Shown: positions 1,936 to 51,924 of the stretch, in pieces | How the letters are laid out: every line of letters starts with the position of its first letter | How positions within the stretch are numbered: the stretch's first letter is position 1 | From: a virus | Direction: 5' to 3' (one strand) | Virus record (IMG/VR): IMGVR_UViG_3300025146_000019 | Location: 1-53,546 of that record | Length of the DNA stretch: 53,546 bases | The notes under the pieces: generated by a model | The model's database searches: none | The model's input: the letters and a program-made list of their open reading frames with translations, nothing else | Told to the model about the DNA's origin: nothing | Translations under genes and position numbers: made by a program

Positions 1936-2391
1936 TCAGTGGTCCCTTGTGCAGGTCATGCAGTCGGCCGCGTACTGGAAGCCGTGCGGGCACGGCGTGG
2001 GCGGGGGTGGCGGCAGCGGCATCGGCACGCCGGGTGGCCTGCCGGCTACCCCCATGATCTCATGCTCGGTGGCGTCTCGCTGCGCCCGCCGGGCCATCAC
2101 CTCGGCCTTCACCAGCAGCAGGTAGCAGCGCAGGTCGTCGATCTGGTCGAGGAAACCCTCCTCCGCGCCGTCTGCCTCACAGGCCGCGAACACGTCCATG
2201 TGGTGCTGCTCGAGCATGGCGACGATGCGGTCCCACTTGCGGACCAGGCCCTGGTAGAACACGCCCGCACCTCCGTGCCGCTTCCAGGCGCCGTGGTACA
2301 CGGCCTCCTTGGCGCGCACCGTCTCCACGTCCTGCTCTACGACGGCGCGGAGGTAGGCGATGTGCTTGTCGTCCCACTTGCTACTGCTCAT
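1936..2391 (-). CDS. Small helical protein, possibly nucleotide-modification-associated (Nmad1/DUF1599-like)
   Basis: This 151-aa protein has a helical core with YHGAWKRHGGAGVF near residues 32-45, RKWDRI near 51-56 and DQIDDLRCYLLL near 82-93. The spacing resembles the phage-associated Nmad1/DUF1599 family, which often lies beside base-modification enzymes; I know that association from the literature but cannot run a profile here. A proline run and a Cys/His cluster (CPHGFQYAADCMTC) form the tail and could bind a metal. Its start overlaps the end of the deoxynucleotidase-like gene by 11 nt and it ends 4 nt before the polymerase, so it belongs to the modification and replication operon. The family assignment is tentative. 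Confidence 0.55.
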   Translation of the reverse strand: MSSSKWDDKHIAYLRAVVEQDVETVRAKEAVYHGAWKRHGGAGVFYQGLVRKWDRIVAMLEQHHMDVFAACEADGAEEGFLDQIDDLRCYLLLVKAEVMARRAQRDATEHEIMGVAGRPPGVPMPLPPPPPTPCPHGFQYAADCMTCTRDH

Positions 2392-2995
2392 AGATCATCT
2401 CCATCACCCACTCGTGGAGCTGGTCCCACGCGCGGTCCGGCTCCAGGTAGCTGTCCGCCAGGAGCGTGCCGGGCGGCACCGGGTCCTTCGGGTCGTCGTG
2501 GTACGGGTAGCGCACGGAGGCCAGGCGGGCCTCCGGCCAGTGCTTGCGGTAGCTGCGCAGCGTGGACGCCTTGTCGTCGACCAGCAGGTCGAGCTTCACG
2601 AGGTGCTTCCGCGGTACCAGGTTCAGCTGGTCCGCGTGCAGGAACGGCAGGTGGCGCCGCACCCACTTGGTCTTCGCCGAGGCGGACACCGTGCCCCAGG
2701 GTGCAGACACGAGGTGCAGCTCGCATGCAGAGTTCCACTGCTGCAGGTACTCGGGGATCCGTGCACTCAGCAGGGGCAGCTCGGTCCAGAAGAACTCCAT
2801 GTCGAGCAGCTCGCTGCGCACCATCTTGGTGGCTGCCTCGCGCCAGCCGGGCGGCACGCAGTCCTCGAAGTGCCAGTGCCGCAGGTCCGCGGGACCGATG
2901 CGTGCCTCGGGAGGGGCCATCTCGTTGAAGCGCTGGCAGAACTCGCGCTGGATGTCCACGATGATCCCGTCCATGTCCACACCGACCCGGAGCAT
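2381..2995 (-). CDS. HAD-family 5'(3')-deoxyribonucleotidase-like phosphatase
   Basis: The 204-aa protein looks like a compact HAD phosphatase of the 5'(3')-deoxyribonucleotidase type. Motif I is DMDG at residues 7-10 with the nucleophile Asp7 and the acid/base Asp9. A motif II Ser is likely in LVSAPW (95-100), a Lys at 130-134, and the metal-binding pair is in LLVDDK (137-142). Family members remove the phosphate from deoxynucleoside monophosphates. Several 5-hmdU phages use a phosphatase to deplete dTMP, so clearing dTMP or an unwanted dNMP would fit its place right after the thymidylate-synthase homologue. The ATG at 2995 shares one base with the stop of that gene (TGATG). The substrate is inferred. 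Confidence 0.75.
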   Translation of the reverse strand: MLRVGVDMDGIIVDIQREFCQRFNEMAPPEARIGPADLRHWHFEDCVPPGWREAATKMVRSELLDMEFFWTELPLLSARIPEYLQQWNSACELHLVSAPWGTVSASAKTKWVRRHLPFLHADQLNLVPRKHLVKLDLLVDDKASTLRSYRKHWPEARLASVRYPYHDDPKDPVPPGTLLADSYLEPDRAWDQLHEWVMEMIYEQ

Positions 2996-4098
2996 CAGTT
3001 CACCTCCGGGTTGACCGCGTGCGGCCCGTCGTCCCGGGCGCGCTCCCAGGCAGTCATGCGCCGGTCCAGCCACTCCGTGCCGGCTCGGTACCAGTCGGTG
3101 GCGGCACACCCGTGCATCTCCTCGCTGGCCCTGCGGTGGCCCTCCTCACCCCGGTTGCTCACCCAGGCCTCGTGGGCGAGGGCCATGGGCGCGGCCACGT
3201 CCCGGACCCAGGGGTCCTCGAACTTCCGGTGCGGGCCCTCGTCGAGCAGCTGGCGCAGGCTCCGGTCGAATCGGTCCAGGTCCGCGCTCTCCGGGAACAG
3301 CGGGTAGGGTTTCACGGCGCCCGTCACGTAGGGGCAGCCAGCGCAGCCCGAGTAGGGCTTGCTCAGCAGCTGTGGGATGGCCAGCTCCTGCCGACTGGGC
3401 ATCTTGTCGAGCACAGCCAGGTAGGCGTGCCAGTTCACGCTCACCTGGGTCAGCTCACCGACGGGCCTGCCGACGCCCGCGGCCACATACTCCTGGAGCA
3501 TGGAGAAGTGGACCGCGTTGGCCCCGTAGGCGCCCCAGATGACGTCGTTGGAGCGGCAGAACACCGTCATGTCGACGTGACCCGAGGGGCTCACCTGAAC
3601 CGTGGCGGTCAGGTTGCAGGGAGCGTCAGCGCCCCGGTAGCCCAGGTCGGTCTCCGGGTCCCACATCTGGATGACCTGGCGGCGGCAGTTGGGGTCCTGC
3701 CGCAGACCCGCGATGACCTCGCGCACCTGGTCCAGCGGACCGGCCCCCATGATGGTGGGGAACCAGTCGCGCCACCGCCGGCCGTAGGCCCCGTGGAGCA
3801 CCTCGCCGTCGTCGCTGTAGGTGCGCATGCGCTCCACGTAGCGAGCGGGGAAGGCCACGTCGGCTCGACCCGCCAGCATCCACACGCTCTCCAGCAGGTG
3901 GAAGAACGGGTTGGCGTCGCGCCACGCCCAGGTCAGCACCCGCTCCTCCGGGTCGGAGTAGGACGTGCCCACCGGACTGTGGAACTGCACCACGGGACCG
4001 TTGCGGCTGTCGCGCCGCTTCATGAGGCTCTCGTCTCTTGCAACCCGCAGTGCAATCGTGAGTGCCTGGTTTACGTTGCGTGCCAGGATCGTCTGCAT
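2995..4098 (-). CDS. Thymidylate synthase homologue, probable dUMP hydroxymethylase
   Basis: This 367-aa protein belongs to the thymidylate synthase fold. It carries HGAYGRRW at 102-109, the double-Arg phosphate-binding segment CRRQVIQMWDP at 138-148, the nucleophile Cys161 in APCNL, RSND at 182-185 and an Asn at 194 in WGAYGAN, followed by the VNWHAYL histidine segment at 221-227. Classical enzymes have PCH where this has PCN, and the stretch before Asn194 is one residue longer. Homologues in 5-hmdU phages convert dUMP to 5-hydroxymethyl-dUMP, and the kinase and transferase genes that follow make that role likely. The ATG at 4098 follows an AAGGGGGG ribosome site. It could instead be an ordinary dTMP synthase. 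Confidence 0.85.
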   Translation of the reverse strand: MQTILARNVNQALTIALRVARDESLMKRRDSRNGPVVQFHSPVGTSYSDPEERVLTWAWRDANPFFHLLESVWMLAGRADVAFPARYVERMRTYSDDGEVLHGAYGRRWRDWFPTIMGAGPLDQVREVIAGLRQDPNCRRQVIQMWDPETDLGYRGADAPCNLTATVQVSPSGHVDMTVFCRSNDVIWGAYGANAVHFSMLQEYVAAGVGRPVGELTQVSVNWHAYLAVLDKMPSRQELAIPQLLSKPYSGCAGCPYVTGAVKPYPLFPESADLDRFDRSLRQLLDEGPHRKFEDPWVRDVAAPMALAHEAWVSNRGEEGHRRASEEMHGCAATDWYRAGTEWLDRRMTAWERARDDGPHAVNPEVN

Positions 4099-4129
4099 CA
4101 GCCCCCCTTGCTTCTCGTCTCGTCCGCTG

Positions 4130-5011
4130 CTAGGCGGACCGTCTTCCAGCGTAGCGCCGCTTCAGCGGCTGCGACAAGTGGGTAGCTCGGCACCACTTGT
4201 CGTACTCACAGGCCCAGTGCTCCACCTCGCGCATCTCCCAGCGCTCCCAGCCACTGGGCCACCGGACCACGCTCCTGCTCTCCTGCAGCAGCCGATGCAT
4301 CAGCAGGGTCATCTTCCGCTGGTCGCGCTCGCTGGTGTAGCGGTACTGGTCCGGCCTGCCGTGGAACACCCAGCTCAGGCCGCGGGCGCAGCCGGGCCCG
4401 GCGGCGGCCCAGCTGTTGATGTCCGTGGCCATGGACAGCAGCGGAGTCCACCGCAGGTCGCTCACCACCTCGTACGCCATGAACTGGCCGAGGAACGGGC
4501 ACTGCATCAGGTCGGCGTGGGCAGCTGCCAGCGAGCGCCACCCGTGCATCCACATCAGCTGCGCGCGCTGTCGCAGCGCCTCCACGCACCAGATGACCCC
4601 CTCGAGCTTGTTCATGCCGTCCGGCGTCTTCACCAGGTAGGCGCCACCCACCAGCGGGCTGACATCGCGCAGCCGGGTGCGGACCTCCTCGCTGTCCCAG
4701 CGGCCCTCCGCCAGCATGGAGCGCAGCCGCTCGAGCGTCTCGACGCGGTTGATCCAGCGGCAGGCAGCCATGCCAGTGATCAGCTCCGGGCCGCTGCCCC
4801 GCTCCACCAGTGGCTTCCGGACGTGCTCCGCGATCCACTGCGTGGTGCGGTCGTCCTCGCGACGGACGTTGCAGAAGAACCAGGTCGACATGGCCCGGTC
4901 CCCGGTCCAGGGTCCCGGCAGCCCAGCCAGCCGGGCGAGGCGGATCTTCTCCCGCTCCACGGCGGTCTGGAAGAACTCCGCGATGCCCTCCTCGACCTGG
5001 CGGGTGATCAC
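4130..5011 (-). CDS. Amino acid:DNA transferase of the aGPT-PPlase family
   Basis: The 293-aa protein matches the phage family first named alpha-glutamyl/putrescinyl-thymine pyrophosphorylase and later shown to move amino acids onto phosphorylated 5-hydroxymethyl-dU in DNA. Family hallmarks are FCNVRREDD at 46-54, RWINR at 85-89, PFLGQFMAYEVVSDLR at 172-187 and ATDINSWAAAGPGCARGL at 195-212. The enzyme would displace the (pyro)phosphate put on by the kinase encoded just upstream and form a C-N bond to an amino acid or amine. The GTG at 5011 overlaps the kinase stop (GTGA). Which amine it uses cannot be read from sequence; glycine would suit the flavin enzyme at 7.7-8.5 kb. Confidence 0.85.
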   Translation of the reverse strand: MITRQVEEGIAEFFQTAVEREKIRLARLAGLPGPWTGDRAMSTWFFCNVRREDDRTTQWIAEHVRKPLVERGSGPELITGMAACRWINRVETLERLRSMLAEGRWDSEEVRTRLRDVSPLVGGAYLVKTPDGMNKLEGVIWCVEALRQRAQLMWMHGWRSLAAAHADLMQCPFLGQFMAYEVVSDLRWTPLLSMATDINSWAAAGPGCARGLSWVFHGRPDQYRYTSERDQRKMTLLMHRLLQESRSVVRWPSGWERWEMREVEHWACEYDKWCRATHLSQPLKRRYAGRRSA

Positions 5012-5589
5012 GCCGTCCCCCACCCCAGGGCCTCGAGCACCCGGCGCAGCGCGGACTCCCGCCCGTGCCACTCGGCCTGGACGCCCTCCCGCTGGAGGCG
5101 ACCCATGGACAGCTGGGTGGCCTTCACCTTGGCGATGGTGTTGCTTGGGTTCAGCGGGCGTCCATCCCCCCGGGCCCTGCGCCGCTCCTCGATGGAGGCC
5201 ACGCAGATGGCGATGGGCACGTCCAGCGCCACCACCAGCAGCGGCAGTCCATCGCGGTGCATGGCGCCGCACCACTTGGCGTCGCCGGAGAGGAGCAGAC
5301 CCTCGAAGAGGACGTGGTGCCCCTGGCCATGGTACTCGCGGACCAGCTTGTCCACCACCTCGTAGCTGGGCAGCGTGTCGCAGCCACCGCACGCAGTCTC
5401 GTAGTGGCCAGCCACGAACAGTCCTGCGGGCTGACTGCCGGGGTAGCCTGCCTGACGGCGCAGCAGGTAGCCCACAGGGCGCTTGCGGCCGGTCTGTGTG
5501 ACGACGCTCTTGTCCTCGTACCGCCTCATGACCTCGCGCACGAGCGTGCTCTTCCCAGTGCCCGACGTTCCTCGGATGTTGATGATCAC
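5008..5589 (-). CDS. P-loop 5-hydroxymethyl-dU DNA kinase, kinase domain only
   Basis: This 193-aa protein opens with a Walker A loop, GTSGTGKST, at residues 7-15. It also carries GHYETACGGCDTLPS at 61-75 and VLFEG at 93-97, a pattern I associate with phage 5-hmdU DNA kinases. Such kinases phosphorylate the hydroxymethyl group of 5-hmdU within DNA to activate it for amino-acid transfer. The protein is short because it lacks the helical domain; a separate gene at 9.1-10.0 kb seems to supply that part. The GTG at 5589 overlaps the stop of the upstream phosphatase gene (GTGA), and its own stop overlaps the transferase start. Confidence 0.82.
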   Translation of the reverse strand: MIINIRGTSGTGKSTLVREVMRRYEDKSVVTQTGRKRPVGYLLRRQAGYPGSQPAGLFVAGHYETACGGCDTLPSYEVVDKLVREYHGQGHHVLFEGLLLSGDAKWCGAMHRDGLPLLVVALDVPIAICVASIEERRRARGDGRPLNPSNTIAKVKATQLSMGRLQREGVQAEWHGRESALRRVLEALGWGTA

Positions 5590-6032
5590 TTGTTTCTGTT
5601 CTCCAGGTCTGTGGCCAGTAGCCCTCGGCACGCCGCGATGATCAGGTCGACCACCTGCTCGAAGCGGTCCTGCTCGCTGCTCGGGATGAAGGCGGGATCC
5701 GGGATGCGCGGCTGGCTGACGTAGGCGCCCAGGCAGACGGCGGTGCTGGGCAGGTGCCCGTCGCACATGGCGCGCAGGCGCTTCTCGTTGCCGCGGTCCA
5801 TGTACAGGATGAGGTCGTGCCTCAGCAGCATCTCGCGGGTGACCTGCTGCGGCACGTGGCTGTCCAGGTCGTAGCCTCGCGCAGCCATTGCGCGGCGCAT
5901 GCGGCCAGCGGCGACCTTGGCGCGTGGGTGGAAGCCAGCGCTGGTGACGTGCTCGTAGCCCAGGGAGCGGAGCACCGCGGCAGCGGCCGGGCTGCGCATG
6001 TAGTTGCCGTGGCAGAGCACCAGGATCCTCAT
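5586..6032 (-). CDS. Low-molecular-weight protein-tyrosine-phosphatase-like enzyme
   Basis: The 148-aa length and motifs fit the low-molecular-weight phosphatase family. The P-loop CHGNYMRS puts the nucleophile at Cys7 and the phosphate-binding Arg at residue 13 (C-x5-R), and the general acid is Asp112 in IPDPAF. Such enzymes form a phosphocysteine intermediate and act on phosphotyrosine, phosphoarginine or small phosphates. Here the gene is translationally coupled on both sides (ATGA with the amidoligase, GTGA with the DNA kinase). A role in removing or editing phosphates on modified bases is therefore as plausible as dephosphorylating a host protein. The catalytic residues look intact; the substrate is unknown. 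Confidence 0.85.
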   Translation of the reverse strand: MRILVLCHGNYMRSPAAAAVLRSLGYEHVTSAGFHPRAKVAAGRMRRAMAARGYDLDSHVPQQVTREMLLRHDLILYMDRGNEKRLRAMCDGHLPSTAVCLGAYVSQPRIPDPAFIPSSEQDRFEQVVDLIIAACRGLLATDLENRNK

Positions 6033-6952
6033 GGCTGGAACGTCCCCTCCCGTATGCGCTCCAGGTTCCCCCGCACCACGTCCCGGGGCACCGTGCCGTC
6101 GAGGACGGTCGCGCGGTAGCGCACCTCCATCCAGTGAACGTAGGGGGGGAACTGCGGGAACTTCGCCTGGGCGAACCCCTCGTGGAAGATGGCCTCCGGT
6201 CCCCGCCGAGTGTTGAGCGCGTCCAGCAGGAACGCCCGGCACCACCGGGCGCAGGTCACCACCTCGCTGGGCTGGAGAGTGCCGGGGAAGTGCCGGAACT
6301 CGACGGTGTTGGTCTCCTTCCACATCTGGCGGAGGTTCACCGCGGCTCGCGGCTGCGCGTGCCACATGACCCGACCGTGTCGGTCGCGCACGCACTCCGC
6401 CTCGAAGAACTCCTGCACAGTGTCCGCGCGGAGCTGAGCCTCGACCCGCTTGGCGGGCACCCGCGTGTGGTGGCTGACCAGGCGACGGCGCCAGCGGCGC
6501 AGCGCTCCGTTGTACTCCTCGCTGCTGGCGTACTGGTCGCTGGTGGGCCGGCGTATCGGCTCGACCAGCGCCAGCGCCCGCTCCAGAAAGGCGTCGCAGT
6601 AGGCCTGGACCTCCTTCAGCGCGTCCAGGTCGTCGCGCAGGCCCGGCACCCGCACGTGGATGTGCAGGTTGGACCGGTGGTTCACCCGCGACTCCGGGTG
6701 CATCAGGAGGAAGGTCGCCAGCATCAGTCCCTGGCCCTCCGGCGTGGCCGTGGGCGGGGTGTTGACCTCGCCGCCCCGGGTGTTGATCACCCCCCTGGGG
6801 TCCACCGCGCTGCCGTCCGAGTTCATCATGGTGACGTCGCGCTCGTCCACTGCCCAGCCGGGTGGCTCGGTGGGCAGCCCGCGGGTGCGGTCCCAGTCGG
6901 CCAGCTCGTGCTCGGCCCCGTAGGTCCAGGTGCGGCCGGTGCGGTCGGTCAC
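6029..6952 (-). CDS. COOH-NH2 amidoligase (glutamine-synthetase-fold amidoligase family)
   Basis: This 307-aa protein shows the marks of the amidoligase family, whose members use ATP to join a carboxylate to an amine. They are GAEHE at 12-16 near the N-terminus, GGEVNTPPT at 60-68, the metal-binding NLHIHV at 95-100, and AVNLRQM followed by NTVEFRHFPGTL at 204-226. The predicted fold is that of glutamine synthetase. Its gene sits inside the thymidine-modification operon, joined by GTGA to the 90-aa gene before it and by ATGA to the phosphatase after it. I infer that it forms an amide on an amine-bearing thymine or on its precursor. The amine and acid substrates cannot be told from sequence. 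Confidence 0.8.
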   Translation of the reverse strand: MTDRTGRTWTYGAEHELADWDRTRGLPTEPPGWAVDERDVTMMNSDGSAVDPRGVINTRGGEVNTPPTATPEGQGLMLATFLLMHPESRVNHRSNLHIHVRVPGLRDDLDALKEVQAYCDAFLERALALVEPIRRPTSDQYASSEEYNGALRRWRRRLVSHHTRVPAKRVEAQLRADTVQEFFEAECVRDRHGRVMWHAQPRAAVNLRQMWKETNTVEFRHFPGTLQPSEVVTCARWCRAFLLDALNTRRGPEAIFHEGFAQAKFPQFPPYVHWMEVRYRATVLDGTVPRDVVRGNLERIREGTFQP

Positions 6953-7221
6953 CCCTCACCCCCCACATCGTCTCCATCGTCTTCGTCATCCTCGAGAGTA
7001 CCGGACTCCGGCACCACCGGCCTGGGCGAGCCGGCCATCCCGTCCACTCGACGGTACAGCTCCGCGTCGAAGCTGCCGTTGCGCTTCTCCGCCTCCACCT
7101 CCCCCTGCATGACGTTGTGCGCGGCGTCCGCCAGCGCCACCCAGCAGCCGGAACCGTCCACGTACTGGTCCGCCCGGTCCAGCAGGTAGGCGGCCACGTC
7201 CCTGGGCTCGAGCTTCGCCAT
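6949..7221 (-). CDS. Small acidic-tailed protein, unknown function
   Basis: A 90-aa protein starts at ATG 7221, overlapping the cupin stop by the ATGA arrangement. The N-terminal 60 residues look helical (EPRDVAAYLLDRADQYV) and the C-terminus is a low-complexity acidic stretch (TLEDDEDDGDDVGGEG). Acidic tails of this sort are common on small phage proteins that contact DNA-binding partners, but no family is recognised. Its tight coupling to the amidoligase gene on the other side places it within the modification operon. Confidence 0.65.
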   Translation of the reverse strand: MAKLEPRDVAAYLLDRADQYVDGSGCWVALADAAHNVMQGEVEAEKRNGSFDAELYRRVDGMAGSPRPVVPESGTLEDDEDDGDDVGGEG

Positions 7222-7691
7222 CACGAGCGCCTCCGCGCGATGAACTCCTGCCAGGGCAGATAGCCCATGACCGGGCTCCAGAAGCCCCACGACCCCTCGT
7301 CGTCAGCCTTCGGGCCGGTGATGAACAGGGTCCAGCAGTCCTGCTCCCGCAGGTCCACGCGGTGAAAGGTCCTCGAGGTGATCAGGTTGAGCTGCAGCGG
7401 CCGGACCTCGCGCCGGACGATGGTGTCGTCCGGCAACCGCACATCCTCCCAGTAGCCGCCAGCCAGGATGAGCGACACGGCCCACTGCCAGGGGTGGTTG
7501 TGCAGTTCACCGGCGTCGTCTCCGGTGTGGAACTTGTGCAGCATCATGTTGAATGGCCAGCGGCTCCAGCGGCCCTTGCGCGGCCCGCCGAGTAGGTAGA
7601 ACCGCGACAGGTATGGAGTCACCCCATCGCGGTTCCTGATGACTCGGACGCGCAGCCGGTACGAGACCCGCTCCAGCATCCGCCGGATCAC
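7221..7691 (-). CDS. Cupin-like protein with HxH metal-binding signature
   Basis: The 156-aa protein looks like a small cupin. FHTGDDAGELHNHPW carries a Glu and an HxH pair of probable metal ligands, and the later FHRV and WTLFITGPK segments continue the beta-barrel pattern seen in cupins of phages and high-GC bacteria. Cupins of this kind may be dioxygenases, epimerases or simple binding proteins. The GTG at 7691 overlaps the stop of the flavoenzyme (GTGA); an internal ATG at 7679 is the alternative start. Placement between the flavoenzyme and the amidoligase suggests a step in tailoring the modified base, which is inference. Confidence 0.72.
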   Translation of the reverse strand: MIRRMLERVSYRLRVRVIRNRDGVTPYLSRFYLLGGPRKGRWSRWPFNMMLHKFHTGDDAGELHNHPWQWAVSLILAGGYWEDVRLPDDTIVRREVRPLQLNLITSRTFHRVDLREQDCWTLFITGPKADDEGSWGFWSPVMGYLPWQEFIARRRS

Positions 7692-8521
7692 GACGTGGCC
7701 TCCAGGATGCGGCTGGCTGCCCAGCCGGCTGCGATGGTGCCGCTCTTGGCGCCGCCCGTCGCCAGCCAGATGCCTGACTCGCGCTCCTCCAGCAGGCAGG
7801 GCTTGGCACCCTGGACGTAGGGCCGGTCCCCGACCATGGGCTGGGCCAGCTCCTCCGGCTGCTCGACGAAGTTGGCGCACCGCACCCGGCTCTTGTGCTC
7901 GCGCTCGGTGGTCCAGCTCTCGGGCTTCAGCGCCGAGCCGTCGCCGCACCAGATGGTGCCGGGCCGCTCCTGGAAGGCGACCAGCTGCTTGTACGGTGCC
8001 CAGACGTTGATGGTGGGCTGGAACTCCCCCGGGAAGCGCCAGGCGGTGCCGCGCAGCGCCTTCAGGTTGGGCACCTGCATCAGCTCCCGGCACCAGATGC
8101 CGGCCGCGACGACGACCAGGTCGGCGTCCAGCCAGCCTCCTCGGGCCAGTCCCACGCCGTGCGGTCCGCTGTCGTCGCTGTAGCGGATGGAGGACACGGT
8201 GTCCTGCACGTGCATATCGCCCAGGTCGAGCACCGCCGCCGGGTTGACCCGGTAGACCTTGGAGCGCAACCCGCCGGGCCTGATGGTGAACTCGATCTCC
8301 TGCAGTCCGTACAGGTCGGACAGCATCCGGAGGCCGGCGTCCGCGACGCCCTTGCCCAGGCCGCTGAACCAGCTGGGCTTCATCAGGCACGCGCTGGGTG
8401 CCGACCCGCTCATGGGCCGGCGGTCGTCGACCACCTTGACCGAGCGACCCTGGGCCCGGAGCGCCTTGGCGATGGTGGCGCCGAACAGCCCGCCACCGAC
8501 GACGACCGCGTCCAGCCTCAC
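7688..8521 (-). CDS. FAD-dependent glycine-oxidase-like enzyme, probable flavin-dependent lyase of base modification
   Basis: This 277-aa protein has the DAO-family layout. A Rossmann dinucleotide site VVVGGGLFGATIAKAL (6-21) is followed by an acidic strand end VVDD near 30-33, and a C-terminal GGAKSGT loop near 255-262 closes over FAD. DAO flavoenzymes oxidise amino-acid C-N bonds. In phage thymidine hypermodification, flavin-dependent lyases act on an amino acid already attached to the base and can leave a 5-aminomethyl group. The surrounding transferase and kinase genes support that role over free glycine oxidation. I chose GTG 8521, which overlaps the stop of the 28-aa peptide by GTGA; GTG 8524 is equally close. 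Confidence 0.83.
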   Translation of the reverse strand: MRLDAVVVGGGLFGATIAKALRAQGRSVKVVDDRRPMSGSAPSACLMKPSWFSGLGKGVADAGLRMLSDLYGLQEIEFTIRPGGLRSKVYRVNPAAVLDLGDMHVQDTVSSIRYSDDSGPHGVGLARGGWLDADLVVVAAGIWCRELMQVPNLKALRGTAWRFPGEFQPTINVWAPYKQLVAFQERPGTIWCGDGSALKPESWTTEREHKSRVRCANFVEQPEELAQPMVGDRPYVQGAKPCLLEERESGIWLATGGAKSGTIAAGWAASRILEATS

Positions 8522-8604
8522 CACGGGAACACCCACACAGCGATGACAGCAGCCAGCGCGAAGCACAGCAGCGCTGCCCACAGCAGGTACGGATCTCGGT
8601 TCAC
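8518..8604 (-). CDS. 28-aa single-span membrane micropeptide
   Basis: A 29-codon reading frame fills the gap between the GIY-YIG gene and the flavoenzyme exactly, with GTGA overlaps at both ends. The peptide begins VNRDPYLLWAAL and continues as one hydrophobic span ending VWVFPW, so it would sit once in the membrane with a very short tail. No function is recognised. The exact fit into the overlapping gene chain is the main evidence that it is translated. Confidence 0.6.
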   Translation of the reverse strand: MNRDPYLLWAALLCFALAAVIAVWVFPW

Positions 8605-9125
8605 TCTCTTCTCTCCCTGGCCCGGCGGGCCTTCATGGCGGCGGACACGCGCGCACGGCGCTCCGGCGTCCACTCGAACGTGGGTGCGCGGGAAGTTCCA
8701 CGCAGCTTCCGGGTCGCTGCGGCCTTACGCCCCACCTCGGCTGGGGTGGTCTTCCAGGCAGCCTGCCCTAAGCGACCCTCCGCATGCAGGCGCTTCGCAT
8801 TCCGTGAGCGTGACGCGCGCACCGCTGCAGTACTCTCTGGGCAACGTGCGATACGTGAGAGGTTCAGCAACCGCTCTGCCGGCAGCGAATCCAGCCAGGA
8901 CTGCTCCACTACGACCCGCACCTCCGCAATACACTCCTCCAACACGATCAACTGAAGGGCGCCCGCGCCGTGCTTATCGTGAATGGCCTGGAGCCAGCGG
9001 TTCCAGTGGAGACCAAGACGGAACATGCGCTGGTGCATGTACCAGCGCGACTCTATCGCCCGAGACGAACCCACGTACAGTTGTCCGCGCCTCGCGTAGA
9101 CGATTGCGTAGACGCCGCAGGTCAC
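8601..9125 (-). CDS. GIY-YIG endonuclease, homing-endonuclease type
   Basis: The 174-aa protein begins with a GIY-YIG nuclease domain: GVY at 4-6, YVGSS at 17-21, the conserved Arg27 and following His in SRWYMHQ, and a catalytic Glu in VLEECIAE. The basic C-terminal half contains NUMOD3-like segments (TPAEVGRKAAATRKLRG and SAAMKARRARERR) that usually bind DNA in phage homing endonucleases. Such genes are often selfish insertions. The GTG start at 9125 overlaps the stop of the upstream gene and its stop overlaps the micropeptide start, so it is fully built into the operon. It could alternatively degrade unmodified DNA. Confidence 0.85.
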   Translation of the reverse strand: MTCGVYAIVYARRGQLYVGSSRAIESRWYMHQRMFRLGLHWNRWLQAIHDKHGAGALQLIVLEECIAEVRVVVEQSWLDSLPAERLLNLSRIARCPESTAAVRASRSRNAKRLHAEGRLGQAAWKTTPAEVGRKAAATRKLRGTSRAPTFEWTPERRARVSAAMKARRARERRE

Positions 9126-10036
9126 CGGGAGCCCTCCGGCATGGCTGCCAGGAATTGGCGGGCCGTCAGGCTGTGGGGCAGCCACGGCTCCAGCCCCTCC
9201 CTGATCTCATCAATGTCGTTGAACAGTGGATAGTGTCCACGCACGTGCGACTTCCAGCAGCAGAGGATCGTCTCTACTTCTTGAAGCCCCACAGGACGGT
9301 CCATCCGTGGTGGCGCCTTGTAATCCTTGAACACGTCCAGTAGATAGTCCACCACCCCGTCGAGCGCCGCCTGGCGGTTCTTTGGCCGCGCGCTGTCGGG
9401 CAGCTGCATCTTGGCGCGCCACACCATCAGCGCCGCCTCAGCCGGGTCCCTGTACATGAAGACGCTGGCCCGGCTGAAGTCGACCGGGGTCTCCAGGACG
9501 CGGTCCAGCATGTCGCCCACCTTGAAGGCGATCCAGTCGCCGAACAGGTGGTGGCGCTTCACCCGCTGGCGCAGCTCCGCGAACGGCATGGGCCACACGG
9601 ACGTGGAGATGATGTAGCTCACCAGGTGCTGGGGCCCGTTGGGGTACTGCGTCGCCAGGTCGTGCACGCAGCGCTCCGCCGCCTCGCCACGCCAGTGCCG
9701 CCGCTCCGCCGCCCTGGGCCACCGTCCGCCCGTGGGCGCGGCCTCCTGGTTCCTGGCCGCCAGCAGCAGCGCCTGCCAGAAGCCGCGCCCCGCGTGCTGG
9801 CTCAGCCAGCAGCTGGCGCCCACGTGGTAGCAGCACCAGTAGGCGACCAGCCACCGCTGCAGCTGCTCGGCATCCAGGTGCTCGCTCTCCCGCATGCGGT
9901 GCAGCGCGACGTACACCGGGTCCAGGTCTCCTGACGCGAGGAGCTGCCGGCCGAAGTCCTCGACCGGCAGCACCTCGTAGGGGGGCACCCTCGGCGCTCT
10001 CTTCTTCTCCTCGCGTTGGGGTGCCGCCCGACTCAT
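9122..10036 (-). CDS. Helical protein of the 5-hmdU DNA kinase helical-domain / aGPT-PPlase clade 2 type
   Basis: This 304-aa all-helical protein contains ERRHWRG at 111-117 after a WPR, a long helical middle with YPNGPQHLVSYI, and GDWIAFKVGDMLDRVL at 166-181. I recognise this combination from the helical domain that accompanies phage 5-hmdU DNA kinases, first described as a clade of aGPT-PPlases. Here it stands alone, while the P-loop kinase domain is encoded 3.5 kb downstream. I infer that the two act together on 5-hmdU DNA. The ATG at 10036 overlaps the previous stop (ATGA). Recognition is by motif memory, not a profile search. Confidence 0.7.
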   Translation of the reverse strand: MSRAAPQREEKKRAPRVPPYEVLPVEDFGRQLLASGDLDPVYVALHRMRESEHLDAEQLQRWLVAYWCCYHVGASCWLSQHAGRGFWQALLLAARNQEAAPTGGRWPRAAERRHWRGEAAERCVHDLATQYPNGPQHLVSYIISTSVWPMPFAELRQRVKRHHLFGDWIAFKVGDMLDRVLETPVDFSRASVFMYRDPAEAALMVWRAKMQLPDSARPKNRQAALDGVVDYLLDVFKDYKAPPRMDRPVGLQEVETILCCWKSHVRGHYPLFNDIDEIREGLEPWLPHSLTARQFLAAMPEGSR

Positions 10037-10386
10037 CCCTGCTCCTTCTCTCGCTTGGCCCGCTTCAGGTGCTCCTCGAAGCGCGCCAGGCCCTGCAGGT
10101 CGACGCCCGCGTGCTCCGCGTAGTTGCGGAGCATGAGCGGGTTCCAGCGGCCACCGCCCTGGATGCGCAGCCGCCGGCTGGCCAGCACCCGACGGTGGCT
10201 GGCCCCCTCCTCGTCGTCGCTCACCTCCACCGGGGCCCAGACGAACACCAGCTGGTTCCCCTGCTTGGAGACGAACAGCACGACGTCCGTGGCGCTCATC
10301 TTGTGGGGGCTGGCCTTCATCAGCTCGGTGAACATGGTGGCCTCGCTCTTGCGGAAGTCCGTCTCTGCCACGCGGACGAGTCTCAC
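10033..10386 (-). CDS. Hypothetical 117-aa protein
   Basis: The protein starts with GTG 10386 overlapping the stop of the HTH gene and ends in an ATGA overlap with the helical-domain gene. The N-terminal half alternates charged and hydrophobic strands (VVLFVSKQGNQLVFVWAPVEV), and the C-terminus is a basic helix (EEHLKRAKREKEQG). No family is recognised. Its position at the head of the modification island suggests it is co-expressed with the base-modifying enzymes. Confidence 0.7.
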   Translation of the reverse strand: MRLVRVAETDFRKSEATMFTELMKASPHKMSATDVVLFVSKQGNQLVFVWAPVEVSDDEEGASHRRVLASRRLRIQGGGRWNPLMLRNYAEHAGVDLQGLARFEEHLKRAKREKEQG

Positions 10387-10742
10387 GACGCACCTCCGAT
10401 CTGGTCCATGATCCGCTGCAGCTCGCGCCGCAGCAGCCGGTGGGCGATGGGCCGGATGGCCTCGGTGATCTCCGACTCGAGGTCGGTCATGGGCTCGGCG
10501 GCAGCAGCCCGCGCGGCCCTGTCAGCGGCGTGGACCTTCCGCGCAGCGGACAGGGCGCGCTTGTGACCACCGCTCATGGGCCTCTTGCGGTGCAGGCCCT
10601 TCTTCACCCAGTACTGGATGGTGTTGGGCTTCAGCCCGTGAGCAGCGGCCACCGCACCGCGAGCACCGCCCCTCTTGGCGCGGGCGTACTCGCGGGCGAT
10701 GGACGCCTTCTGCTCGGCGGACAAGTTGATGCGGGCAGCCAC
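10383..10742 (-). CDS. Helix-turn-helix DNA-binding protein
   Basis: This 119-aa basic protein carries a helix-turn-helix near residues 20-45 (ARGAVAAAHGLKPNTIQYWV), similar to the HTH of transposase-like and IS-type regulators. A second basic helix follows (KRALSAARKVHAADRAARAAAA) and a helical tail. It may regulate the operon or bind phage DNA during replication. I chose the GTG at 10742, 2 nt after the stop of the upstream gene; its own stop overlaps the next start (GTGA). Confidence 0.68.
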   Translation of the reverse strand: MAARINLSAEQKASIAREYARAKRGGARGAVAAAHGLKPNTIQYWVKKGLHRKRPMSGGHKRALSAARKVHAADRAARAAAAEPMTDLESEITEAIRPIAHRLLRRELQRIMDQIGGAS

Positions 10743-10744
10743 AG

Positions 10745-11263
10745 CTACTTGTCCTCCGCCTTCGGCTCCGTCGGCTTCCAGGTGATGGTCTCGCCGTCGG
10801 TGCTGATGAGGCGGTAGTCGTCCTCGGCCACCTCCTTGATGCCGAAGCCCAGCCGGTTGTTGAGGATGCGGAGCGCCTCGCTGAACTGGCGCTCGTTCCA
10901 CTTGGCCGCCTTCATCATCTCGGCGCCGGTGGCCCCACCCCGACGGCCCATGAGAGCCAGCACCACCTCGCGGCGGCTGCCGCGGCGCGGCTCCTGGACG
11001 GTCTTGGAGGCCGGGTAGAGCTTCAGGCGCGGCGCCTTGGGCTTGTCGTCGACCTTGTTGTTGGCGGGCAGCGCGGCCTGCCACCCGGTCAGCGCCTCGA
11101 GGGTGCGCTGCTGGGCGATGCCCTTGTCGCGGAACGCCTTGAGCCCGCGGCCGGTGATCTCGTTGAAGACGTCCAGCAGCGCGCCGAGCGTCATCGCTCC
11201 GATGGTGACGTGGGTGATCTCGCCGTGCTTCTTGGAGGGGAACGGGGTCTTGTTGGTCGCCAT
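10745..11263 (-). CDS. Protein with C-terminal winged-helix domain (DUF3489-like)
   Basis: The 172-aa protein has an unrecognised N-terminal half and a C-terminal winged-helix-like domain. The stretch REVVLALMGRRGGATGAEMM (about 98-117) and the following KWNERQFSEALRILNNRLG resemble DUF3489 domains, which are short DNA-binding modules. ATG 11263 follows an AAAAGGAG ribosome site. The 83-bp gap before it holds TTGCCT, a GTCGAG and TGATAGT, a possible but weak promoter. It is the first gene after that gap and could be an early regulator of the island. Confidence 0.68.
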   Translation of the reverse strand: MATNKTPFPSKKHGEITHVTIGAMTLGALLDVFNEITGRGLKAFRDKGIAQQRTLEALTGWQAALPANNKVDDKPKAPRLKLYPASKTVQEPRRGSRREVVLALMGRRGGATGAEMMKAAKWNERQFSEALRILNNRLGFGIKEVAEDDYRLISTDGETITWKPTEPKAEDK

Positions 11264-11346
11264 TGTCTGTTGCTCCTTTTCTGGGTCGCGCCGGAAACCG
11301 ACGCGTGACTATCAGTCTGGCTCGACCTGCGAGAAAAGGCAATACC

Positions 11347-11643
11347 TCATCTGGGTTTTTCTTTCGTAGCCTGCAACTGCTTCCTGGCATCTTGCAGGGC
11401 AGACTCAGCGGCCTCCGCGCGGACCGCCATCTGGCTGGCGCGGTGCACGGACACCATGTTGGCCTCCAGGGCGCGGGCCAGCTCCGCCTGCACCCGCGCC
11501 AGGGTGGCGGCGCAGGTGTCCAGGTCCTCCATCAGAGTGGTGTTCTGCGCCTCCAAAGCCAGGACCTTCTCCTCCAGCGCTGCCACCTTGCTCTCGTAGC
11601 GCTCGCAGCAACTGGGGTCCATGATGACCTCTGAGCCGCTCAT
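11347..11643 (-). CDS. Coiled-coil protein, unknown function
   Basis: The 98-aa protein is mostly a heptad-repeat helix (YESKVAALEEKVLALEAQN, then LARVQAELARALEAN) and should form a coiled coil. ATG 11643 overlaps the stop of the RecD/Dda-like helicase gene (ATGA), which suggests the two are made together. No enzymatic motif is present. A role as a helicase accessory or a small scaffold is possible but not shown. Confidence 0.7.
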   Translation of the reverse strand: MSGSEVIMDPSCCERYESKVAALEEKVLALEAQNTTLMEDLDTCAATLARVQAELARALEANMVSVHRASQMAVRAEAAESALQDARKQLQATKEKPR

Positions 11644-14632: not shown

Positions 14633-15037
14633 TCAGCCAGAGCGCTCAGGACCAAGTTTTTGGTCCGTCCCGCGAGACGGATCCGTTTTCGACCCGCCAA
14701 GGTCCGGTGACACCACGAGGTAGCGGCCCTCCTTGCCCGACCACTGCAGCATGCGCCACCGCCCCCGGTTCACCGCCGCAGCGATCACACACGCGATCCC
14801 GATGAGGCAGGGGTTGCCCACCAGCAGCAGGCTGTCCGCGTCGCCGTAGCCTCGCAGCTTCTCCATCATCTCCTGGGTCACCGACTCCAGGTTCCAGGGC
14901 CCGGCGCTGGGGCTCAGCAGGTACACCAGCTCCCCGTGCTCCCGGGCCGGGCTGAGGTCGAACTTGGGCACCAGCCGCTGCTCGTCCTCGGACCAGTGGT
15001 GCTGCTGCTGGACCACGAACACTCTGCCACTGCTCAT
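14633..15037 (-). CDS. Conserved phage hypothetical protein
   Basis: This 134-aa protein contains GELVYLLSPSAGPWNLESV near residues 38-56, DSLLLVGNPCLIGIACVIAA near 71-90, and RWRMLQWSGKEGRYLVV near 96-112. The ordered alternation of strands and helices suggests one compact domain. I associate the LLSPS and QWxGxExRY pattern with small phage early proteins of unknown role. ATG 15037 overlaps the SNF2-like helicase stop (ATGA), so the two are probably coupled. Confidence 0.75.
   Translation of the reverse strand: MSSGRVFVVQQQHHWSEDEQRLVPKFDLSPAREHGELVYLLSPSAGPWNLESVTQEMMEKLRGYGDADSLLLVGNPCLIGIACVIAAAVNRGRWRMLQWSGKEGRYLVVSPDLGGSKTDPSRGTDQKLGPERSG
14649..14666 (-). terminator. Small hairpin at end of the 134-aa gene
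   Basis: GGACCAA (14649-14655) and TTGGTCC (14660-14666) can pair across a 4-nt loop, within the last codons of the gene ending at 14633. The stem is short and no T-run follows on the minus strand, so any terminator role is weak. Confidence 0.3.
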
Positions 15038-16575
15038 CGCAACCACTCCCTCAGGCTGTCGCCGGTGACCTGGGCAGCCACGTCCATCTTCGCCTGGAGC
15101 GCGGCCACGATGCGCTCGTCGACTGTGTCCGGCGCCACCAGGTCGACGTAGTGGACCGGGTGTACCTGCCCGATGCGGTGGGCCCGGTCCTCCGACTGGA
15201 GGCGCTCTGTGAGCTTGAAGCTGTTGTTGTAGTAGATCACGGTGCGCGCCGCGTGGAGCGTCAGGCCCTCACCGGCAGCAGCCGGGTTGCCGACGAAGAA
15301 CTCCGCATCCCCCTGTTGGAAGGAGCGCACCGCGTCGCCGCGCTCCTTGTCCTTCACGGTGCCGTCGTAGCGCACCCACGTCCGCTTGGCGGCGGTGAGC
15401 GCCTCGCAGATCAGGTCAATGTCCCGGCGGAAGCGCGCCCAGATGATTGCCTGGTGGGGCAGGTCCTCCACGATGCCCAGGAGGGTGTCGAGGCGAGGGT
15501 TGCCGCCGGGGATGTCCTCCAGCTTGGCCCTGAACGTCATCAGCTCTGGCTGCAGGTGGGCGACCCCGGCGTCGGTGGGTGGGATCTCCGCGGTCGTGGC
15601 GGGCACATACCCACAGGTGATCTGCTGGAGCCGCAGCAGCCGCACGATGGCGAGCGGTGCCATGACCTCTGCGCCGCTGTCCAGCTCTGCGACGAACCCC
15701 TCGCGCAGCTCGTCGTACAGCCGGCGCTGCGCGGGGGTCAGCTCGAAGCTCACGCGGCTGTAGAGCTTGGGCGGCAGGTCCAGGCCAGCCTGGTCCTTGG
15801 TGATGCGCGTGGCCACGCGGTCGACGATCTTGTGCAGCTGGTCGAGCCGCGTGTAGCTGACCAGGCGCGGGAACCGACGGCCCCCCGCCCAGCCGTCCTC
15901 CCACACGCCGAAGTACGCCTTCATGGCGCCGAAGGTCCCCAGCCCGTGGCGGTGCCAGAACTTCTCCTCCAGGAACTTCAGTGGCGAGTAGACGTCGAAC
16001 GGTCCGTTGGCCACCGGGGTGCCGTCCAGCAGCCTGCGATACGGCGCGTAGCGAGCGCTGGCCAGCACCGTGCGGGTGCGGATGGTGCGCGGAGTCTTGA
16101 TGCGGCGGGCCTCGTCCAGGACGTACAGGCAGCGGCGCCGGGTGAGGAACGCCTTGGCCAGCGCCTTGCCGCGCGTCGTGCAGAACCCGTCGTAGCTCAT
16201 GGTGAGCACCGCCAGGCCCCCGCACTCCAGCAGCGCCTCCGCCGCCGCCTGCTGCTTCCTGGTCTTGGCCCGGGACGAGTACCAGGCCAGGCAGGTGGTC
16301 GGGACGACGTCCGGCATGTGCGCCGGCACCTCATCGGTCACCCAGTTCCGGTGCACCCCCTCCGGAGCCAGCACCAGCAGTCCGCTGGCCAGTCCGCGCA
16401 TGTACAGCCAGGCTGCCGTGTCGATGGTGAGCTTGGACTTGCCGGTGCCCTGCTCCCAGTAGATTGCCCGGGTGGGCTCCTCCCTGCTGCGCTCCCACTC
16501 CTCCAGCTGGTGCCGGAAGGGGGTCGTCTTCCACGGGTAGTGCTCGGAGTCTCGTGCCTCAATCGTGTCCACCAT
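15034..16575 (-). CDS. SNF2-family DNA helicase/translocase
   Basis: The 513-aa protein has both RecA-like lobes of an SNF2 ATPase. The first carries EQGTGKSK at 41-48 and a Walker B variant DEAR at 154-157 in place of DEAH, then LLDGTPVANG. The second carries IIWARFRRDI, VGNPAAAGEGLTLH and ends with SEDRAHRIGQ, the motif VI arginine finger region. Phage SNF2 proteins act in replication or remodel protein-DNA complexes. ATG 16575 follows AAAAGGAG, with promoter TTGCTC-18-TATAGG 23 nt or more upstream. It is the first gene after the left control module, so it probably heads the early operon. Confidence 0.92.
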   Translation of the reverse strand: MVDTIEARDSEHYPWKTTPFRHQLEEWERSREEPTRAIYWEQGTGKSKLTIDTAAWLYMRGLASGLLVLAPEGVHRNWVTDEVPAHMPDVVPTTCLAWYSSRAKTRKQQAAAEALLECGGLAVLTMSYDGFCTTRGKALAKAFLTRRRCLYVLDEARRIKTPRTIRTRTVLASARYAPYRRLLDGTPVANGPFDVYSPLKFLEEKFWHRHGLGTFGAMKAYFGVWEDGWAGGRRFPRLVSYTRLDQLHKIVDRVATRITKDQAGLDLPPKLYSRVSFELTPAQRRLYDELREGFVAELDSGAEVMAPLAIVRLLRLQQITCGYVPATTAEIPPTDAGVAHLQPELMTFRAKLEDIPGGNPRLDTLLGIVEDLPHQAIIWARFRRDIDLICEALTAAKRTWVRYDGTVKDKERGDAVRSFQQGDAEFFVGNPAAAGEGLTLHAARTVIYYNNSFKLTERLQSEDRAHRIGQVHPVHYVDLVAPDTVDERIVAALQAKMDVAAQVTGDSLREWLR

Positions 16576-36269: not shown

Positions 36270-37523
36270 TCAGGCGCGGGCCGTGGTCGGCGGTCGGCTG
36301 GCGTCGCGCTCGGCGCGGACGGCCTCGTACAGGTCGCGGGCCTCCTGACTCTTGCTGGTCAGGTCGACCAGGGCCGCGGCCTCGGACATGCTCTTCTCGC
36401 CCGCGTGCTTCACGACCATGGCGTGGAGCTTGGTGGCGGCGCTGTCGTCGGTCATGTTGGGGGCCGGGCCGCCCAGGGCCTTGGCCAGCTCGGCGCAGGC
36501 GAAGCTGGCTCCGCGCAGCGCCTCGTGGGCCGCCTTGCGGGTGGCCTCGTCGGCGATGCCGTCGACGGCGCGCAGGATGGCGGAGCGCACGGGCAGGGTG
36601 CCCTTCAGCGCGGGGATCTCCTCGCTGGCGCGCTTCTCCAGGCGGGCCTGGGCCGCCTCGCGCCGGTCGTGGTCCCGGTCCTTGGCCATCTGGACCAGGC
36701 GCGGGTCGTCCGACTTGCGGAACACCTCGCCGCTGTCGCTGCGGTAGGCGACCTGGTCCGGGTCGTGGAGCTTGGTGACCTGCTCGAGCTGGGCGCGCAG
36801 GCCGTCGCGCTCGGCGGTGAGGGTCTCGACCGACTTGGAGAGGCGCTTGTTCTCCGACGCCATCTCCTCGTCCTCCTCCTCGTCGTCTTCCTCCGGCGGG
36901 AACTCCGACTTCATCGCGGCGATCAGGGCGGCGCGGAGGGTGGGGTCCTGCTTGAGGGCGGAGATGATGGTGGCCTGGTCGAGCTTCACGGTGTTCTCCT
37001 GCTGGTTGTCCGTCTTCACGGTCTCGCGCTCGCCGATGCCGGCGATGCTGAAGCCGGTGAACTCGCCCGACTTGAACTTGGCGAGCACCTCGGGCGACGG
37101 GCGCACGGCGATCATCAGTCCGTAGGTGTCGGTCTGGACGCCGAACGCCTTGGCGACCTCTGGGGTCATCGGCATCGCGAACACGACCTCGCCGTCCTTG
37201 CGGTAGTCGTGCATCGCGTCCTGAGCACGCGACCGAGACATGAACTCGGCCGCGGCAGCCATCATCGACTGCGCGTCGATGTGGTCCCCCTGCAGGTCGA
37301 AGTAGTCCTCGCCCTTGCGGGCGTTGACCATGGCCCAGCCGAACACCAGCCCCAGCTCGTCGCTGACCTTCACGGCCGGAACGAACTTGGAGACGATGTC
37401 CAGCTGCTTGCTGCCCTTGATCAGCACCACGACCGCCGGCTCCTGGGCTGGCTTGTCGACGGCGCTGATGAAGTTCAGCTGCTTCAGCCGGAGGAGGAAC
37501 TGCCTGGTGGCGTCGGAGGGCAT
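36270..37523 (-). CDS. Prohead protease (XkdF-like) fused to scaffold
   Basis: The 417-aa product begins with an XkdF-like serine-protease domain: VFGWAMVNARKGEDYFDLQG near 62-81, AMHDYRKDGEVVFAMPM near 105-121 and KSGEFTGFSIAGIG near 153-166. The remainder is a charged, acidic and coiled region (PPEEDDEEEDEE, SKSVETLTAERDGLRAQL), as in scaffolds. The protease would cut itself and the scaffold during head maturation. I chose ATG 37523; a longer upstream frame exists but would include the promoter. Confidence 0.8.
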   Translation of the reverse strand: MPSDATRQFLLRLKQLNFISAVDKPAQEPAVVVLIKGSKQLDIVSKFVPAVKVSDELGLVFGWAMVNARKGEDYFDLQGDHIDAQSMMAAAAEFMSRSRAQDAMHDYRKDGEVVFAMPMTPEVAKAFGVQTDTYGLMIAVRPSPEVLAKFKSGEFTGFSIAGIGERETVKTDNQQENTVKLDQATIISALKQDPTLRAALIAAMKSEFPPEEDDEEEDEEMASENKRLSKSVETLTAERDGLRAQLEQVTKLHDPDQVAYRSDSGEVFRKSDDPRLVQMAKDRDHDRREAAQARLEKRASEEIPALKGTLPVRSAILRAVDGIADEATRKAAHEALRGASFACAELAKALGGPAPNMTDDSAATKLHAMVVKHAGEKSMSEAAALVDLTSKSQEARDLYEAVRAERDASRPPTTARA

Positions 37524-37545
37524 CCGTGCGACTCTTGCACTAGGA

Positions 37546-37574
37546 CACCTATCCCAACGCGATCGGTCCGGCAA
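37546..37574 (-). promoter_or_regulatory. Putative promoter before the protease/scaffold gene, TTGCCG-17-TAGGTG
   Basis: TTGCCG (37574-37569) and TAGGTG (37551-37546) on the minus strand are 17 bp apart in a 131-bp non-coding gap, 22 nt before the ATG at 37523. GATAGG two bases upstream is an alternative -10. It may boost expression of scaffold, decoration and capsid. Confidence 0.45.
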
Positions 37575-51813: not shown

Positions 51814-51924
51814 TCAAAGCGTGCCGTTCTTCCGCACGACTCCCTGGCTGCTGTCCAGGTAGGCCGCGCGAGCGGCAGCCTTGTCCCGCTTGGTGAGCTT
51901 GATGGTTGCGTACCTGTTGATCAC
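51814..51924 (-). CDS. 36-aa basic micropeptide
   Basis: GTG 51924 overlaps the helicase stop (GTGA). The peptide begins VINRYATIKLTKRDKAAARA, and it is positively charged. Its only support is the overlap and the codon style. No function can be assigned. Confidence 0.48.
   Translation of the reverse strand: MINRYATIKLTKRDKAAARAAYLDSSQGVVRKNGTL

Follow-up and report, generated by a model that had tools for sequence, protein, structure and literature searches.

The closest described relatives of the locus considered here are the thymidine hypermodification systems of phages PaMx11 and M6. The locus is a minus-strand gene chain in the linear IMG/VR virus record IMGVR_UViG_3300025146_000019, all 53,546 bases of which were analysed and are referred to below as the window. 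In the PaMx11 type, a glycinyltransferase, a flavin-dependent lyase (FDL) and an acetyltransferase produce 5-acetylaminomethyl-deoxyuridine (dU), and in the M6 type a radical S-adenosylmethionine (SAM) enzyme and a pyridoxal phosphate (PLP) enzyme lead to 5-aminoethyl-dU (5-NedU). A further point of comparison is CmoY, for which ATP-dependent amide ligation of the carboxymethyl-cytosine carboxylate to glycine has been demonstrated on phage DNA; CmoA, CmoX and CmoY make 5-glycylcarboxymethylcytosine in Synechococcus phage S-B43 (PMC12783734). The window carries an amidoligase and a low-molecular-weight phosphatase (LMWP) at the position of the PaMx11 acetyltransferase, and the chain probably encodes a post-replicative thymidine hypermodification, affecting part of the thymine, that ends with the amidoligase capping an amine on the base. 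The chain consists of 12 genes running from 10036 down to 1936, with 4-base overlaps between most neighbours, as follows.

9122..10036, minus strand: amino acid:DNA transferase (ADDT), predicted glycinyltransferase (PF18724, 9.5e-21; 8z2m, 4.8e-83; ADDT protein 25qc, 1.7e-93)
8601..9125, minus strand: GIY-YIG endonuclease, between ADDT and the lyase (PF01541, 4.7e-5)
7688..8521, minus strand: FDL (8z2o, 1.4e-63; DAO, 1.2e-15)
7221..7691, minus strand: cupin (phrog_4786 'cysteine dioxygenase', 1.9e-32; motif HNHPW...GGYWE...FHR common to homologues)
6949..7221, minus strand: 90-aa orphan protein
6029..6952, minus strand: amidoligase (Amidoligase_2, PF12224, 4.4e-6)
5586..6032, minus strand: LMWP (LMWPc, PF01451, 2e-21)
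5008..5589, minus strand: 5-hydroxymethyl-dU (5-hmdU) DNA kinase of the P-loop type (AAA_33, 9.3e-7; phrog_800, 5.2e-18; Walker A GTSGTGKST)
4130..5011, minus strand: HMUDK_hel, helical partner (PF18723, 1.5e-36)
2995..4098, minus strand: thymidylate synthase (TS) homologue, predicted dUMP hydroxymethylase (PF00303, 3.1e-19; phrog_5131, 7.2e-108)
2381..2995, minus strand: HAD 5'(3')-deoxyribonucleotidase (NT5C, PF06941, 4.4e-17)
1936..2391, minus strand: 151-aa protein at the chain end

The original prediction, made from the letters of the window, was of an overlapping chain of hypermodification genes; all the proteins that it named are present on this strand with Pfam or PHROG matches. Its coordinates hold apart from those of HMUDK_hel (corrected to 4130-5011), the kinase (5008-5589) and ADDT (9122-10036), and the chain additionally contains the GIY-YIG endonuclease (8601-9125) and the 90-aa orphan (6949-7221).

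A TS-family hydroxymethylase, a 5-hmdU DNA kinase with HMUDK_hel, and an ADDT are found within this one cluster, the combination that marks thymidine hypermodification. Homologues of both solved enzymes of the glycinyltransferase/FDL branch are also present and retain the invariant positions of both families, including CLMKPSW and further positions in the FDL. Profile and PDB searches place the kinase, transferase and lyase in thymidine-hypermodification families, as had been proposed, and the kinase and transferase do not fall in unrelated ones. The match of the kinase to Pfam HMUDK (2e-4) is under the Pfam cut-off, and the protein is related to the M6 and PaMx11 kinases. At the nucleotide level the TS gene matches Bordetella phage genes for TS/deoxyuridylate hydroxymethyltransferase. 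For HMUDK_hel, a sequence search against solved structures returned nothing meaningful.

The ADDT, FDL, kinase, HMUDK_hel and TS families are common to the window and PaMx11, with identities of about 50% for ADDT and about 44% for FDL; ADDT, kinase, HMUDK_hel and TS are common to the window and M6, the window having a lyase in place of the radical SAM and PLP enzymes. The order of kinase, HMUDK_hel and TS genes is identical in all three. The whole PaMx11 order (ADDT-FDL-acetyltransferase-kinase-HMUDK_hel-TS) is kept in the window with the acetyltransferase replaced, its slot holding the cupin, the orphan, the amidoligase and the LMWP. The window also differs from PaMx11 in that the NT5C-type HAD nucleotidase (2381-2995) occupies the position of the HD-domain protein of M6 and PaMx11, likely a non-homologous replacement of the dTMP-depleting step. 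No acetyltransferase was found in the window or in the overlapping contig L002 with a PaMx11-seeded profile and Pfam, and hence no PaMx11-type GNAT. Likewise, an M6-seeded profile and Pfam found no radical SAM enzyme, and an M6-seeded profile no PLP enzyme, so that the window lacks the M6-type route to 5-NedU. The seeded profile is the stronger test for radical SAM, because the Pfam model gives M6's own enzyme a weak score. The absence of all three enzymes claimed in the original prediction is thus borne out. Its further claim of a final base unlike those described is supported by the amidoligase-LMWP pair at the PaMx11 acetyltransferase position.

From these families a pathway can be proposed, of which the steps as far as 5-aminomethyl-dU (5-NmdU) follow homology. 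The TS homologue would make 5-hydroxymethyl-dUMP and the HAD nucleotidase would lower dTMP, so that 5-hmdU would enter DNA. The kinase and HMUDK_hel would activate 5-hmdU in DNA with pyrophosphate, ADDT would replace the pyrophosphate by glycine to give N-alpha-glycyl-T, and the FDL would convert glycyl-T to 5-NmdU, the course from 5-hmdU through glycyl-T to 5-NmdU being the established one for these families. Glycine as the predicted added amino acid and 5-NmdU as the predicted intermediate, both suggested at the outset, are well supported because of the clear homology to the solved glycinyltransferase 8z2m and the solved FDL 8z2o. The amidoligase would then spend ATP to turn a small carboxylic acid into its acyl phosphate and would couple the acid to the aminomethyl group, yielding an N-acyl-5-aminomethyl-dU. 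The amine as target is suggested mainly because the lyase, PLP/radical-SAM and QueF routes described below all leave a primary amine on the base. As for the donor, a first guess would be glutamate, giving the gamma-glutamyl amide of 5-NmdU, because the best-known members of the fold discussed below use it. Calculated neutral masses are 257.101 for 5-NmdU, 299.112 for its acetyl form, 314.123 for a glycyl amide and 386.144 for the gamma-glutamyl amide ([M+H]+ about 387.151).

Evidence for a capping step comes from the distribution of the amidoligase. Pattern scans of IMG/VR were started from FDL, amidoligase and ADDT, genes were assigned with locally built profiles, and FDL sequences were collapsed at 90% identity, leaving 50 distinct FDL loci. 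Amidoligase is found in 21 of these, acetyltransferase in 15, neither in 14 and both in none (Fisher p = 3e-5, or 1e-4 without three loci found only via the amidoligase query, values that are a guide only since the test treats loci as independent and ignores relatedness). The two genes mostly occupy one shared slot. Parsimony places 11 changes of the amidoligase label on the FDL tree, at least three of which are forced by starred branches; thus amidoligase and acetyltransferase have replaced each other repeatedly. Their mutual exclusion points to the amine as the amidoligase target, and the amidoligase step seems, from these gene patterns, to substitute for the acetylation already known. The arrangement is also seen in a sequenced phage from sewage, Simon, where ADDT, FDL, amidoligase (48% identical) and LMWP (39%) come directly before the kinase, with another protein where the window has the cupin. 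The FDL locus of Stenotrophomonas phage Sonora has neither tailoring gene.

The window amidoligase matches PF12224 with 27.2 bits (cut-off 22 bits) and phrog_2443 at 0.003. Sequence searches against solved structures, with the single sequence or a profile, returned nothing meaningful. An AlphaFold2 model built with 15 sequences has a pLDDT of 93.4 and a pTM of 0.90, and its top 50 fold matches are all glutamine synthetase (GS), gamma-glutamylcysteine-ligase-type (GCS) or YbdK structures, with probabilities of about 0.5-0.99 and with weak scores (E near 2e-3 or worse, TM about 0.3-0.4). The model therefore supports membership of the GS/GCS superfamily of carboxylate-amine ligases, at the level of superfamily and not of substrate. 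Enzymes of this type use ATP to activate an acid as an acyl phosphate, which is then attacked by an amine, and glutamate is the best-known acid of the fold. Positions GxExE, GGE, H99, R202/N206 and ExR are among those invariant in the 15 aligned sequences. The likeness to CmoY lies in ATP-driven amide ligation on a modified base of phage DNA. The two are otherwise mirror images: in CmoY the carboxylate is on the base, a cytosine, and the enzyme is an AMP-forming asparagine-synthetase homologue, whereas in the window the predicted amine is on the base, the acid would be cellular and the ligase fold is GS/GCS-like.

The LMWP has the motifs CHGNYMRS (CX5R loop) and IPDPAF (acid-loop DP), both retained in 14 aligned sequences. 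It occurs with the amidoligase in 16 of the 21 amidoligase-bearing FDL loci, 11 of 12 loci with a glutamine amidotransferase (GATase), one of five PLP/radical-SAM loci and one of two QueF loci, and the genes often overlap. The original contrast, in which an amidoligase, a cupin and a phosphatase stood instead of the known tailoring enzymes, holds for the amidoligase and LMWP, a recurrent and functionally linked pair; the cupin is outside the conserved module. The LMWP is perhaps linked to the amidoligase by removing phosphate from the acyl donor or the product. A role in cleaning up 5-hmdU phosphates is disfavoured as a general one, because LMWP accompanies the amidoligase in one QueF locus, L043, whose 109-kb contig yielded no ADDT and no HMUDK_hel.

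The amidoligase also extends beyond FDL loci. Scans with a single sequence and with a three-row alignment gave one and two loci, respectively, and a scan with a 15-row alignment gave 54 amidoligase loci in IMG/VR and two in bacterial bins. The 50 distinct amidoligase loci comprise 21 with FDL, 12 with GATase, five with PLP/radical-SAM enzymes (the M6-like L040, L057, L067, L074 and L079), two with QueF, four with other hypermodification genes and six in which the local profiles recognised no such genes, although one of these six (L051) has an ADDT-family gene. In total, 45 of the 50 accompany base-modification genes of several unrelated chemistries.

The QueF loci belong to 7-deazaguanine-type phages. 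QueF forms preQ1, which is a 7-aminomethyl base. QueF adjoins the amidoligase in L043 (about 9228-11364) and L007 (11866-13940); in L043 it is directly upstream of the amidoligase and LMWP, and FolE and QueC are on the same contig. In Vibrio phage 2.275.O the amidoligase adjoins QueF, and QueC, FolE and a protein resembling GATase are close by. No Pfam TGT match, which would indicate a TGT/DpdA transglycosylase, was found on the L043 and L007 records or in the Vibrio phage. Phages Dp-1 and HVTV-1, which have QueF-type proteins, carry 7-aminomethyl-deazaguanine in their DNA (PMC6884629).

The GATase loci are L049, L053, L054, L055, L058, L060, L061, L069, L073, L082, L086 and L087. A Pfam ADDT match is present on the contig in 10 of these 12, the search having covered all but L086 and L087, and L086 has a gene that falls in the same ADDT-like cluster. 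All 15 GATases neighbouring an amidoligase retain the Met-Cys start of class II. A possible function of these loci is direct amination, giving 5-aminomethyl-dU with glutamine ammonia. Genes resembling TET-associated glycosyltransferases adjoin the amidoligase-LMWP pair in L049 (11594-12244), with clustered genes in L054 and L082, hinting that some phages may make glycosylated products.

Besides the weak fold matches and the independence assumed by the Fisher test, several observations weigh against amine capping. The GATase in 12 loci would fit an ammonia-using enzyme that amidates a carboxylate as well. LMWP is missing from five of the 21 FDL loci with amidoligase and from four of the five PLP/radical-SAM loci. 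Five amidoligase loci are without a recognisable base-modification pathway, FolE being found in most of those contigs. In addition, the pattern scans favour closer relatives in the locus sample, and the window record is possibly incomplete. In L075, L076, L077, L078 and L080, phage contigs that each hold at least one amidoligase copy and mostly FolE, the gene neighbourhood is conserved; a LuxE-like synthetase and UvdE belong to it in L076.

The first of these points is also the basis of the best-surviving alternative, an unlikely one in our estimation, in which polarity is reversed: the amidoligase would activate the carboxylate of glycyl-T and couple it with ammonia or some other amine, either ahead of the lyase step or in its place. 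Amidoligases paired with class-II GATases are expected to use ammonia, the neighbouring GATases have the appropriate start and mostly share their contig with ADDT, and CmoY does link a base carboxylate to glycine. However, this GATase family is not found in any FDL, PLP/radical-SAM or L043 locus, the carboxylate is removed by a lyase or decarboxylase in FDL and PLP/radical-SAM loci, and QueF pathways supply an amine rather than a carboxylate. The exclusion between amidoligase and acetyltransferase also favours an amine target.

Somewhat less likely still, the amidoligase and LMWP may have no part in base modification and be passengers of the cluster, with peptides, peptidoglycan or host signalling as their targets. 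Cell-wall or peptidoglycan modification has been suggested for the amidoligases of OM43 phages and phage U17 (PMC10580990, PMC11945000), and LMWP relatives of solved structure are mostly protein phosphatases. The Amidoligase_2 proteins of LUZ24-like and OM43 phages belong to the same Pfam family as that of the window and have a GATase partner in many loci, and those of LUZ24-like phages have been left without an assigned role in the literature. The window clade differs from them in its weak PF12224 match and its setting in a base-modification cluster. No ATP-grasp, GGCT or COOH-NH2 ligase Pfam family, as would mark a peptidoglycan module, was found among the cluster proteins scanned. Against co-travelling stand the range of unrelated base-modification chemistries that the amidoligase accompanies and its usual place inside the chain at the acetyltransferase slot, never together with an acetyltransferase in FDL loci. 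A third alternative, that the additional genes have no activity and modification stops at plain 5-aminomethyl-dU, the outcome expected of the 14 FDL loci without a tailoring gene, is very improbable, because the retention of active-site-type residues in divergent amidoligase and LMWP relatives needs selection.

The cupin is rejected as a core enzyme since it is absent from most amidoligase loci; its homologues are in a few other loci, mostly at another place in the cluster, and it is regarded as an optional accessory. It has no Pfam match, and a sequence search against solved structures gave nothing meaningful. The 90-aa orphan has no significant Pfam or PHROG match and no relative among the FDL loci first surveyed, and the 151-aa protein has no Pfam match. 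The GIY-YIG gene is probably a homing or mobile insert, judging from relatives within ADDT/FDL clusters (L014 8450-9127, L018 11385-12023 and L023 9370-10002); their recurrence gives the impression that hypermodification loci are targets of homing endonucleases. Outside the chain, the window has an ordinary tailed-phage set (terminase, head morphogenesis, major head protein, tape measure and tail proteins), two distinct SNF2-family helicase genes (15034-16575 and 51921-53519) and an open reading frame (ORF; 36270-37574) that matches both a DNA-methyltransferase PHROG and head-maturation-protease PHROGs. Contig L002 corroborates the left part of the window, to which it is 100% identical across 6,623 bases, and extends past its left end, where ORFs resemble, by eye, DNA polymerase and dCMP deaminase.

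The core pathway consists of known families, and the new element is the amidoligase with LMWP as an interchangeable capping step across several pathways. No paper tying an amidoligase to DNA hypermodification was identified in the literature searched, the key thymidine-hypermodification papers lying outside that search, so a prior mention is possible. The chances are about even that phages use the amidoligase, in most cases together with LMWP, as a general module for acylating primary amines borne on bases with a small carboxylic acid, such as gamma-glutamate, and that it serves at least three chemically unrelated routes to an amine (glycine with the flavin lyase, radical SAM with PLP, and QueF in the 7-deazaguanine pathway), with direct glutamine-ammonia amination of 5-hmdU as perhaps a fourth. 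Pyrimidine and 7-deazaguanine modification systems are thereby indicated to share a tailoring enzyme, and a likely role is suggested for two proteins that are elsewhere annotated as hypothetical or as wall modifiers, the amidoligase and the phosphatase. The prediction is that aminoalkyl bases with an amide cap are a widespread kind of DNA base that has gone unreported; if the general module is real, DNA bases with amide-linked aminoacyl groups form a class that awaits description.

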